From: Oribacterium sp. NK2B42 | Lineage (GTDB): Bacteria; Bacillota; Clostridia; Lachnospirales; Lachnospiraceae | Direction: 5' to 3' | DNA length: 64,000 nucleotides | Assembly: GCF_000424445.1 (NCBI RefSeq) | Contig: NZ_AUJX01000008.1 | Coordinates: forward strand, 1-64,000 | In this document: positions 8,379 through 60,359 of the stretch, one piece after another | How positions within the stretch are numbered: the first letter of the stretch is position 1 | Layout of the letters: each line of letters starts with the position of its first letter | Notes under the pieces: model-generated | What the model was told of the DNA's origin: nothing | The model's input: the letters and a program-made list of their open reading frames with translations, nothing else | Databases searched by the model: none | Made by a program: the position numbers and the translations under genes

Positions 8379-10115
8379 TTATCCGGCAACACTTTCTGCT
8401 GCATTGCCGCTGGCATCGATTCCGCCTGCTGCAAAGTCTGCAGCAGCTGCCTGTGTATCAACAGCGGTCTCAAAGCCTGTGCTGTTGTCTATGGCTGTTT
8501 CTGCCTGAGTTTCCATAGCGGTTTCTGCTACGGTCTCAGCAACAGTTTCTGCAGCAGTCTCGATTACAGCGGTTTCTGCTGCAGTGGTTTCTGCCACAGC
8601 AGCGGCAGTTTCTGCTCCTGCGGCAGCAGTAACGGTTTCCTTGTGAGTGATTACCTCATTTGCAGATCTTGTAGGAGCAACCTGTGTTCTGATTCCTGTC
8701 TCGAGGTTTCCTGAGTCATCATTTATAACTTCGTACCACTCGCCCTGATAATACTCATAAAGTAAACCATCGATATACTTTGTATCACCGTCCCGGTTTC
8801 CTTCGGGAGCAGCAGTCTCGGTTTCCTCTGAACCGGGACCTCCGGATCCGTTTTCATCTTCGGTTTCACCGAATAACGCTCTGATTTCTTCTGTACTTAA
8901 CTGATGAATCTCCTTTGTTTCGAACTCATCATAGGACATAGGGAGCTTAACATTACCTGAAACGATGATACCTGCAAAGGTATTGGCCTCGTCAGATGAT
9001 CCGAAGGATACGGTTATGGTTTCTGCCGGCTTAAAATCATCGTTAATAAGTGCAATATGCTGCTCTGATTCTGTGCCCTTAAAATCCACTGTGGAGCGTC
9101 CGAAAGGATTGCCGTCAACAGTAACGTAAACATCATTGGAGCCCGGAAGATATTCATAGTCGATTGCAAGTAGACCTGAAACAGGATTATCGTTATCATC
9201 ACGGATGTAATCTGCAAGATACACATAAGTAGTGTCATCAATCTTCTCAAAGTCACCTGCAGATATGTAAGTAAAGTTTTCAAGAGCATCTGAAGCTGCG
9301 TCGAGGGTTTCTGACGCAGTATCGAGAGTCTCACAGTTTTCCGAGTGCTCACGGATTGCCTTAATGATCGCATCCGAAACTGCTGCATTACCGTCAGCAT
9401 TCTGATTTATCTTATCATCAGCAACGGTATCTGCCGCATTGCTGCCGTTTGCTTCCATAAGCTTTGCTACATCTACCGTCAAACCGTAGTAGTGATCTGT
9501 GATGTTCTGAATTGCGGAAGCATTGTCATCGGCGTAGCCTTCAGGATTAGTGACAGAAGAAGGCTCGACGAGAGAAATGAGGGTTGCTTCCGGGCATCTC
9601 TTTGCAAGAGCACGGATGAGGCCTTCATAGAAAATTCCGAAGCTTGAAGGCTCATCGTGGTTTCCAAAGCTAAGAATAACCGCATCATACTCCACATCCT
9701 CGGGGAGCTGCTTTGCAACAGCATAGCCTGAGTAAACGGTGTTGTCCGAAGGAAGAGAATAGTTGTCCAGCAGAACCTCGGAGCCGAAGGCCTCTGTTAT
9801 CTTTGAGGAAAGAAGCTCAGCCCATGCTGCAGAGGAATCCTCGAGATTGCTTCCCGCAGCAAATCCATCGCCTATGACTAAAACTGATACAGGCTTTCCG
9901 TTATTGAGCTTCGTGTAAAAATCTCCGGTTTCGGCGCTCTCGTTTGTCTCTTTCTGCTGACCGGCAGAGGTTTCGGCTAATGTTGTCTCCTGAGGTGTCA
10001 CGGCAGAGTTGTTCTGACTGCTGACGGCGGCGATGCCAAGCAGTATAACCGCTAAGCCGGCGGCTCCACCGATACAGGCTTTTTTGTTATTCTCAAAAAA
10101 AGTTTTGAAATCCAT
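8379..10115 (-). CDS. membrane-anchored SGNH-fold protein lacking catalytic residues (paralogue 1)
   Basis: A 578-residue protein: a membrane helix near 14-31, a Thr/Glu-rich spacer, an SGNH/GDSL-like domain (about 75-270), a beta-rich domain (about 295-410) and a long Ala/Thr/Glu tail (ETAAETVAETV type). The block that should read GDS is GDG (82-84), the GxND block reads GNHD, and the C-terminal DxxH block has no His (DDKINQNADG). An active esterase is therefore unlikely; a binding or structural role is inferred. The start at 10115 is set by AAGGAGAT seven bases upstream. It shares its whole layout with the gene at 10491 on the same strand, so the two arose by duplication. Confidence 0.7.
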   Translation of the reverse strand: MDFKTFFENNKKACIGGAAGLAVILLGIAAVSSQNNSAVTPQETTLAETSAGQQKETNESAETGDFYTKLNNGKPVSVLVIGDGFAAGSNLEDSSAAWAELLSSKITEAFGSEVLLDNYSLPSDNTVYSGYAVAKQLPEDVEYDAVILSFGNHDEPSSFGIFYEGLIRALAKRCPEATLISLVEPSSVTNPEGYADDNASAIQNITDHYYGLTVDVAKLMEANGSNAADTVADDKINQNADGNAAVSDAIIKAIREHSENCETLDTASETLDAASDALENFTYISAGDFEKIDDTTYVYLADYIRDDNDNPVSGLLAIDYEYLPGSNDVYVTVDGNPFGRSTVDFKGTESEQHIALINDDFKPAETITVSFGSSDEANTFAGIIVSGNVKLPMSYDEFETKEIHQLSTEEIRALFGETEDENGSGGPGSEETETAAPEGNRDGDTKYIDGLLYEYYQGEWYEVINDDSGNLETGIRTQVAPTRSANEVITHKETVTAAAGAETAAAVAETTAAETAVIETAAETVAETVAETAMETQAETAIDNSTGFETAVDTQAAAADFAAGGIDASGNAAESVAG

Positions 10116-10283
10116 TGTTATCTCCTTAATACCAATGCTGTGAAAGGCTAATGCTTTGGCCATCCACGGTTGATGCGCAATGTTTTTCATTTGTGCGCAA
10201 GGTGCTGATTAACACAGTGATTAATAATACTTTCATTAGCGATAAAAATCAATTAACTTTATTTGAATATTCTCGCAAAATGA

Positions 10284-10360
10284 GGTCAAAGGTAACAGTT
10301 CAGCCAGTGGACCATGGGGACGGAGTTAGTGGTTCACCGGCTGAACTGTTACGGTCAAAG
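10284..10360. mobile_element. 61-bp MITE-like inverted-repeat element with 8-bp direct repeats
   Basis: Positions 10292-10352 form a hairpin: GTAACAGTTCAGCC at one end and its exact complement at the other, with pairing extending to 23 bases per arm (two mismatches) around a 15-base loop containing GGGGACGG. The element is flanked immediately on both sides by the same octamer, GGTCAAAG (10284-10291 and 10353-10360). Adjacent identical octamers are the expected footprint of a transposition event. The element is far too short to encode a transposase, so any movement would depend on one elsewhere. Confidence 0.7.
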
Positions 10361-10490: not shown

Positions 10491-12437
10491 TTAAGGAGTG
10501 ACTGTTATGCCTACGGTTGGACCTGCAGTATTCCACTGACTGACATCTATTCCCTGACCGGCTTCAACAGTGTAGGGGACTGTAGGCACTACGATGGTGG
10601 CAGAGTCGGCAGGATCACTGATAACAGCCTGTTCGGTTGCTTCAGGTGTTTCTGCTGCTGCGGTTTCGGGGACTACTTCTGCCTCTATCTGCGCGGATGT
10701 TTCTGCGGCAGTAGTCTGAACAGGTGCTGTTTCGGGAGCAGCGGTTTCAGTGGCTTGAGCGGATGTTTCGGCAGGAGCTGAAGTCTGCTTCGGAGCAGCT
10801 TTTTTCGCAGGAGCCTTGGTTTCGGAAGCTTTGGTTTCCTTTTTGGTCTCTTCCTGCTTTTTCTTATCCTTTTCTGCTTCGCTTTCGGTCTCTTTCTTTA
10901 CAGTATCAGCCTTAGTTTCTTCTGCAGTTGTTTCCTGAACCTTGGTTTCCGCCGCAGTAGTTTCTGCAACAGTAGTTTCCTCTGCAGTAGTTTCCTCAAC
11001 GGTGGTCTCGGGAGCCGTAGTTTCCGGTGGAAGAGGAAGCTTCTCGTACTTGTCATGAGGCTGATTGAAATTGAGATTTCCGGATATGATGAGTCCATGG
11101 AAACCGTCTGCCTGTTCCTTTGTGGCGAAGCTGACTGCGATACTGTCATTAATTGAAGCATCATTATCAACTATACGTATATGTCTTTCGGGAGCTGCAT
11201 CCTCCTTTTCAAAAGAAAGACCTCCGAAGATGTCATTGTCGATAACTACCTGGGCGGTGTTGTTTCCGGTGAGATAGTCATAATCAAGGCCGATCATACC
11301 GACGGTTTCCGAACCGAGAGCCATAAGCTCCTGTGCGCCAATGATGAAGTTGCAGTCATCGAGACGCTGGAAACTGTCTGATGCGATGTAGTAGTAATGA
11401 TCGTAAAGAGTAGCATCAGGGTTAACAGGTGCTATGGTTCCATCGGCATCCACTGTTGAAACTGTTGCCCCCACGGCATTATCCTTCTCCGGAACATTGT
11501 CCCCGGGATTTCTGAGTCTTTCATCAATCTTACGAACTATCCAGTTTGCATAGAGCTTCTGGCCGTCGGCATTGGGAAGAAGACCGTCATCTGTGAAAGT
11601 GTTCACATCCTGACCTGTAACCATAAAGGCTTCACCCATGTTGGCAACGATGGCACCATAGTGCTCAAGAAGGTTTTTTGCATAGGTGGCGGTTTCATCT
11701 GAATATCCGCCCGGCTCTGTTAACGATGCTGATTCGATCAGGCCAATGATCTCTGCGGAAGGATATTGCAGCTTTATGGAACGAAGCAGGCCCTCATACT
11801 GAAGGTCAAAAGTAAACGGCGCATCATAGTAACCTAAAGCTACGATAACCGCATCATAGACAGAATCCTTATTGCCGGCTGCCTCATTCATGAGAGTCAC
11901 ATAGGCAGAGTAGGCGTTGTTTCCGTTAGGAAGAGAAAGATTATTTACCAAAACCTCTGATCCGAATTTTTCTTTAATATTTAAAGCCAGAAGATCTGTC
12001 CAGTTTGTTCCGTCCTTAGCGCCTGCGCCTGTGCCGAACACATCACCGATAACAAGAATGGAAACCGGCTCACCGGCATTAAGCTTATGGAGAAAGCTGT
12101 TTTCCTCCGGAAGAACAGCAGAAGCTGCCTCTGAGCCATTACCATTTGTGATGATATTTCCGTCTTTATCTGTCTCCGGCTGAAGTCTTTCATTTGCGGC
12201 ATTGATGCGTTCTGCATTAACAGATTCATCGATGGCATCTTCAGTGATGGCGGTGTGTACCATATAACCGAAGGCACCGATTATGGCAACTATCATCAGT
12301 ATAAGCACTGTAAGTAGTGTTGTGCCTTTTTTTGTAAGCGTGGAACCGGTGTTGTTACCGGAGCCGGGTTCATTTGGGGAAGCTGCAGCTGACTCGTTTG
12401 CTGTTTCAGGAACATTGTTCTTTTCGTCTTTACTCAT
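10491..12437 (-). CDS. membrane-anchored SGNH-fold protein lacking catalytic residues (paralogue 2)
   Basis: A 648-residue paralogue of the gene at 8379: a polar cytoplasmic N-terminus, a membrane helix near 40-60, an SGNH-like domain (about 125-320), a beta-rich domain (about 345-465), then a long ETT/EET/AET repeat region with a Lys/Glu-rich middle. The catalytic blocks are lost here too: GDV (131-133) for GDS, GYYD for GxND, and DDGLLPNADG where a His is expected before Pro. The last 25 residues contain GIDVSQWN, which looks like the opening strand of a GH25 lysozyme domain, but the protein stops eleven residues later. GAGGGA precedes the ATG. Confidence 0.7.
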   Translation of the reverse strand: MSKDEKNNVPETANESAAASPNEPGSGNNTGSTLTKKGTTLLTVLILMIVAIIGAFGYMVHTAITEDAIDESVNAERINAANERLQPETDKDGNIITNGNGSEAASAVLPEENSFLHKLNAGEPVSILVIGDVFGTGAGAKDGTNWTDLLALNIKEKFGSEVLVNNLSLPNGNNAYSAYVTLMNEAAGNKDSVYDAVIVALGYYDAPFTFDLQYEGLLRSIKLQYPSAEIIGLIESASLTEPGGYSDETATYAKNLLEHYGAIVANMGEAFMVTGQDVNTFTDDGLLPNADGQKLYANWIVRKIDERLRNPGDNVPEKDNAVGATVSTVDADGTIAPVNPDATLYDHYYYIASDSFQRLDDCNFIIGAQELMALGSETVGMIGLDYDYLTGNNTAQVVIDNDIFGGLSFEKEDAAPERHIRIVDNDASINDSIAVSFATKEQADGFHGLIISGNLNFNQPHDKYEKLPLPPETTAPETTVEETTAEETTVAETTAAETKVQETTAEETKADTVKKETESEAEKDKKKQEETKKETKASETKAPAKKAAPKQTSAPAETSAQATETAAPETAPVQTTAAETSAQIEAEVVPETAAAETPEATEQAVISDPADSATIVVPTVPYTVEAGQGIDVSQWNTAGPTVGITVTP

Positions 12438-60122: not shown

Positions 60123-60179
60123 GGGTAACAGTTCGGTCAAGGTTCTGGTTTATCCAGGACCTAGCTGAACTTGTTACCC
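60123..60179. repeat. 57-bp palindrome related to the GTAACAGTTC element
   Basis: The arms begin GGGTAACAGTTC and end GAACTTGTTACCC; pairing continues inward (GGTCAAGGTTCTGG against CCAGGACCTAGCT) with a few mismatches to a loop TTTAT. The terminal GTAACAGTTC is the same as in the 61-bp element at 10292-10352, but no direct repeat flanks this copy. Confidence 0.75.
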
Positions 60180-60201: not shown

Positions 60202-60359
60202 AGAAAATGCAAGGGATGGGTGGCTAGGCTTGCGGGTTGAAAGAACAGACGGTACATTCATGTACGAACCGGATGCACGTCAGTGCAGTCGGGGCGAACA
60301 TGAATGTGCCGGATGTACTTTTCAATCCCGTGGGCCGTCACCCATCCCTTGCATTTTCT
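60202..60359. repeat. 158-bp extended palindrome of the AGAAAATG family
   Basis: Outer arms of 21 bases (60202-60222 and 60339-60359; AGAAAATGCAAGGGATGGG...) are perfectly complementary. The inner segments pair too: GCGGGTTGAAAG...GGTACATTCATGT (60232-60262) with ACATGAATGTGCC...CTTTTCAATCCCGT (60298-60331). A loop of about 35 bases remains. The outer arms match the compact palindrome at 45466-45510. Confidence 0.85.

Follow-up and report, generated by a model that had tools for sequence, protein, structure and literature searches.

A 61-bp MITE-like element with IS66-type ends and a REP-like core in Oribacterium sp. NK2B42

Why does a palindrome of only 61 bp stand between two identical octamers in the genome of Oribacterium sp. 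NK2B42, and what could have placed it there? The window, that is the whole stretch of 64,000 nucleotides that was analysed, corresponds to C7:1-64000 in a draft assembly of 95 contigs totalling 3.79 Mb. Read directly, it holds the octamer GGTCAAAG in perfect form at 10284-10291 and again at 10353-10360, enclosing 61 bp (10292-10352) which start GTAACAGTTCAGCC and finish GGCTGAACTGTTAC. These are exactly the coordinates and repeats given in a preliminary description, which had also judged the element too short to code; at 61 bp it is indeed noncoding. It is intergenic, flanked by two minus-strand genes, at 8379-10190 and 10491-12437, that encode GDSL-like proteins. The arms (10292-10314 and 10330-10352) are each 23 nt long with 91% complementarity and a perfect outer 14 nt, and folded as RNA the element gives -38.8 kcal/mol (z = -8.4 versus shuffles).

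Its anatomy is 16 + 29 + 16 bp. The left terminal inverted repeat, GTAACAGTTCAGCCAG (10292-10307, plus strand), matches the right end perfectly over its outer 14 bp, and its terminus is identical to that of a resident IS66-family element. The core (10308-10336, plus strand) is a 29-bp REP-like hairpin, TGGACCA-TGGGGACGGAGTTAG-TGGTTCA, copies of which occur with and without terminal repeats. The right terminal inverted repeat (10337-10352, minus strand), supported by the sequence and a terminus search, reads CCGGCTGAACTGTTAC on the plus strand. The general plan of the 61-bp form is a 16-bp end, a 29-bp hairpin unit (TGGACCA-15 nt-TGGTCCA) and a second 16-bp end; in a sister form of ~101 bp two units in inverted orientation, separated by a short spacer (TTTT..AAAA), lie between the ends.

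The family is well represented in the genome. At no more than one mismatch the 14-base terminus GTAACAGTTCAGNC gave 130 matches compared with 4 for a reversed control pattern, and sequence related to the 61-bp element was found at around 40 places, the best with 97% identity over 60 bp; hence the 61-bp structure is not due to chance. We parsed the fetched stretches into 54 non-overlapping pairs of facing ends (at most 4 mismatches per end, 40-800 bp apart), a permissive pairing whose longest and most mismatched members probably include chance ones, so that the result is weakened rather than inflated. Perfect 8-bp duplications flank 16 of the 54 copies, all with different octamers, as against 0-1 copies with exact flank identity at any other length (4-7 and 9-14 bp). 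Furthermore, mean 8-bp flank identity across the 54 pairs is 0.63 versus 0.29 (maximum 0.39) in shuffled pairings. The roughly 70% of parsed copies that lack a perfect duplication may reflect age, deletion or mis-paired ends.

Two size groups stand out, one of 61-63 bp (17 copies whose core could be read) and one of 99-103 bp; perfect 8-bp duplications accompany elements of 47, 53, 61-63, 99-102 and 569 bp. No ORF of at least 200 aa spans any of the 39 elements with enough flank. The same terminus also bounds long palindromes of 283 bp and elements of 348-569 bp with internal repeats (GACTCA.../ATGAGTCAT), some of them flanked by the 8-bp duplication; what these elements have in common is the terminus, not the interior. 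Two near-perfect palindromes of ~283 bp with this terminus (C1:114162-114444 and C1:291907-292188; L225 and L226) are without flanking duplication, and at L221, L223, L224, L315 and L324 the terminus accompanies arrays of ~55-60-bp internal repeats with GACTCA / GGGTCAT motifs. Within the window itself these ends recur in degenerate form (GTAACAGTTCGGTC ... GCTGAACTTGTTAC) as a second pair of ~54 bp at 60125-60178; its flanking octamers do not match, and it is probably an old relic of the family. Adjoining it at 60202-60359 is a nested palindrome of 158 bp, which may be a further small mobile element; its outer arms (AGAAAATGCAAGGGATGGGTG) are perfect over 21 bp.

Among 84,980 species genomes, exact matches to a 23-base segment of the end most frequent in the family were confined to Oribacterium (KHPX15, P6A1 and the metagenome-assembled RUI013). 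Within the genus, terminus GTAACAGTTCAGNC is enriched in RUI013 (G011), KHPX15 (G013), G007 and G005; many other genomes have it at close to background frequency. The 120 scattered single matches of the 14-mer in a viral collection equal the chance level for 14 bases and were discarded.

Two of these relatives preserve the window locus without the element, each with one octamer-like site rather than two. The counterpart in the window reads ATGA-GGTCAAAG-(61 bp)-GGTCAAAG-GGTAATAGC; the locus is continuous in RUI013 as ATCC-GGTCAAAT-GGTAATAGC and in KHPX15 as ATCC-CGTCATAA-GGTAATAG, where the single site has diverged (CGTCATAA). Using 14 joined flank pairs as query against the relatives, we found six more insertions whose orthologous sites are continuous, mostly with a single octamer: C1:209182 and C24:26564 are empty in RUI013, C5:163205 and C31:36912 in KHPX15, and C17:67314 and C4:29276 in both, the KHPX15 alignment being poorer at C4. 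The mobility of the element is thus supported by comparison, in line with the transposition that had been proposed for it; the word 'recent' in that proposal holds just relative to the split from RUI013 and KHPX15. Neither of the two outcomes named beforehand as refuting the proposal, further copies lacking flanking duplications or element-free relatives retaining both octamers, was seen. The 47-bp copy on C20 was considered as a product of in-place shrinkage from ~101 bp and rejected, the ~104 bp of DNA found there in the relatives being unrelated.

The need for a transposase from elsewhere had been foreseen, and the genome does contain ends of the IS66 family that carry this terminus and are flanked by 8-bp duplications. 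Six contigs start or stop ~310-325 bp inside an element carrying this terminus, three with left ends (C5, C18 and C63) and three with right ends (C62, C1 and C48). They re-pair by their flanking octamers, C5 with C62 (CATAAATA), C18 with C1 (TGGTGTGG) and C63 with C48 (AAAGAAGC), and both ends of the split element begin GTAACAGTTCAGCCGACCC, a pattern that we read as a three-copy insertion sequence (IS) whose interior was collapsed by the assembler. The right end encodes a 56-aa C-terminus matching positions 336-386 of 387 of NCBIfam NF033517 (transpos_IS66; E = 1.4e-9), a fragment that had no match in Pfam, and this C-terminal stretch of ~56 aa is the part of an IS66 transposase that is assembled between these ends. 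In a further genus of the family (L385) an IS66-type C-terminus stops ~50 bp inside GTAACTGTTCAGCC. IS66 elements have 8-bp direct repeats and ends starting GTAA (PMC11946415), and the ends of ISPsy43 start GTAACCGTCCGGGCA (PMC12888890).

In the draft assembly, which lacks the central part of the IS66 element, no complete transposase was found between exactly these termini. The Pfam IS66 loci on C62 and C57 of this genome lack these ends, and none of the PF03050 loci across the genus has exactly them; the other IS66 loci of the genus, several of which reach contig ends, have no GTAACAGTTCAGCCG ends. An IS66 end on C40 was rejected as a second parental IS, having its own ends (GTTACTGTTCACAGG) and sitting inside another element. 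Around 20 contigs of G000 terminate within a gene for an IS200-like Y1 transposase, the assembly being broken there by an IS200 element present in many copies. On the strength of the termini together with the transposase fragment, which make a strong case for the IS66 assignment, the likely source of transposase is an IS66-family IS with the GTAACAGTTCAGCCG terminus at both ends.

Other origins for the locus have to be weighed against this one. An ordinary intergenic hairpin, either a terminator or a regulatory site with a chance repeat of the octamer, would suit a strong hairpin between two same-strand genes. However, a promoter and terminator scan at the element gave nothing above chance and no terminator-like site, an Rfam search returned no family and just sub-threshold microRNA noise, and the element is absent from orthologous sites and has dispersed copies with their own duplications, so that we give this explanation almost no credence. 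Movement by a different DDE transposase making 8-bp duplications, IS256-like or other, with a terminus that is alike by chance, is improbable. IS families other than IS66 do produce 8-bp duplications, and with the interior missing from the assembly no complete transposase was seen between these ends; against this, the only coding sequence that adjoins these ends with matched duplications is the IS66 C-terminus, and the GTAAC start is consistent with IS66. Slightly less probable again is a REP/REPIN-type element moved by a RAYT, an HUH tyrosine transposase. Its appeal lies in the core, a short palindrome that occurs alone or in inverted pairs and that in some dozen places has no recognisable GTAAC ends around it (the unit core GGGGACGG(A/G)GTT has 94 matches in the genome versus 5 for the control), and in the presence of a RAYT gene on C1 (192934-193726; 263 aa; NF047646, E = 1.6e-14). 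The palindromes flanking that gene are different (CCACCGGGGACGGTTCTCGCC) and have only GGGGACGG in common with the core; a hybrid at C8:21924 (L295) joins a left half of the MITE to a right half of the RAYT-associated palindrome. Enzymes of the IS200/IS605 type make no target duplications, unlike the clear 8-bp duplication at GTAAC-ended elements, and the terminal repeats also bound elements with unrelated interiors. The window element moreover is one unit rather than an inverted REP pair, which is seen in the ~101-bp sisters, and it has a duplication, while the single RAYT identified has other palindromes at its flanks. The RAYT route is thus disfavoured for the 61-bp element and possible for core copies without terminal repeats. 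We use 'REP-like' for the core without claiming descent from a RAYT-moved REP. Three copies of a perfect palindrome, CCACCGGGGACGGTTCTCGCCGGCGAGAACCGTCCCCGGTGG, also lie around the RAYT-type gene and its neighbour (C1:192000-194500; L255).

Granted IS66-type ends, the 61-bp form may itself never have been mobile, the ~101-bp form being the mobile MITE from which 61-bp copies arose in place by deletion between TGGTCCA direct repeats. We regard this as a substantial possibility, somewhat short of an even chance. Taking one repeat-to-repeat interval out of the 101-bp form leaves the 61-bp sequence, and deletion between the two TGGTCCA repeats of the longer form would yield exactly the shorter one. 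In-place shrinkage is moreover seen at the C31 insertion, which has 101 bp here versus a 36-bp internally deleted remnant in RUI013, both between unchanged AAAGCATT repeats, and each of the two core sequence types is found in short as well as long elements, implying that shortening (or lengthening) took place more than once. Pointing the other way, the four checked 61/62-bp insertions common to relatives (L399, L408, L410 and L413) hold 61 bp there also and never 101. Short copies had short nearest neighbours at a fraction of 0.72 versus 0.53 expected, a value reached in 44 of 500 permutations. More tentatively, and with less confidence than in the deletion route, we suggest that a REP-type palindrome became enclosed by minimal IS66 ends and is now spread by a DDE transposase, in which case the 61-bp form, and perhaps forms of 47-63 bp, would be mobile in their own right.

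Comparison with known systems places 10292-10352 as a well-supported MITE with IS66-type ends. The element is short and noncoding, with terminal inverted repeats, a duplication of fixed length, dispersed copies and empty sites, and ends common to a resident IS. Like the IS66 family, it has ends starting GTAAC and an 8-bp duplication, and an IS66 transposase C-terminus adjoins the same terminus in this genome; unlike that family, it is noncoding, of 61 bp rather than 2-3 kb, and its interior is unrelated to the IS. MITEAba12/ISAba12 (PMC6382973) and MITEPsy1 (PMC3189936), bacterial MITEs on which a resident IS acts in trans, are similarly short and noncoding, with terminal repeats and duplication length matching a resident IS and homology limited to the ends. 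They differ in size (113 and 100 bp versus 61 bp), in the IS66-type ends found here and in that one terminus is here common to several element sizes and interiors. With REP/REPIN sequences, in which a deletion within a pair can leave a singlet (PMC3116915, PMC3733652), the element shares a palindromic unit of ~29 bp, found alone or as two inverted copies separated by a short spacer, whereas here the core lies inside DDE-type terminal repeats with an 8-bp duplication, and its 7-bp stem and 15-nt loop fall outside REP classes GTAG and CGTC. Published MITE ranges are 70-300 bp (PMC3733652) and ~100-400 bp (PMC3116915), so that at 61 bp it is shorter than those published. Our literature search found no IS66-derived MITEs among the papers that it covered, which is no proof of absence. 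We consider the element a member of a new MITE family, unusually short and with an unusual REP-like filling, rather than a new kind of system.

Collectively these data are consistent with a model, which we hold with high confidence, where the IS66-family transposase of a resident IS with the same ends moves the element. This DDE enzyme would bind the terminal repeats GTAACAGTTCAGCCG of ~14-16 bp, cut the element out or copy it, and join it to the target at an 8-bp stagger, thereby doubling the octamer. Because the middle of the IS is missing from the assembly and its gene is partly assembled, we infer both the responsible enzyme and its present activity.

REP-type palindromes normally depend on a RAYT or lack a known mover. 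If the 61-bp form is itself mobile, it would be among the smallest natural elements moved by a DDE enzyme. The element offers a clean example from nature of the small amount of DNA that may suffice for an IS66-type transposase, namely two ends of ~16 bp and a 29-bp hairpin. Given that one terminus surrounds many unrelated interiors in a single genome, the minimal recognition sequence can be read by comparison. The association of REP-like cores with IS66-type ends also bears on how REP palindromes lacking their own transposase could spread, a question left open in earlier work (PMC3733652).
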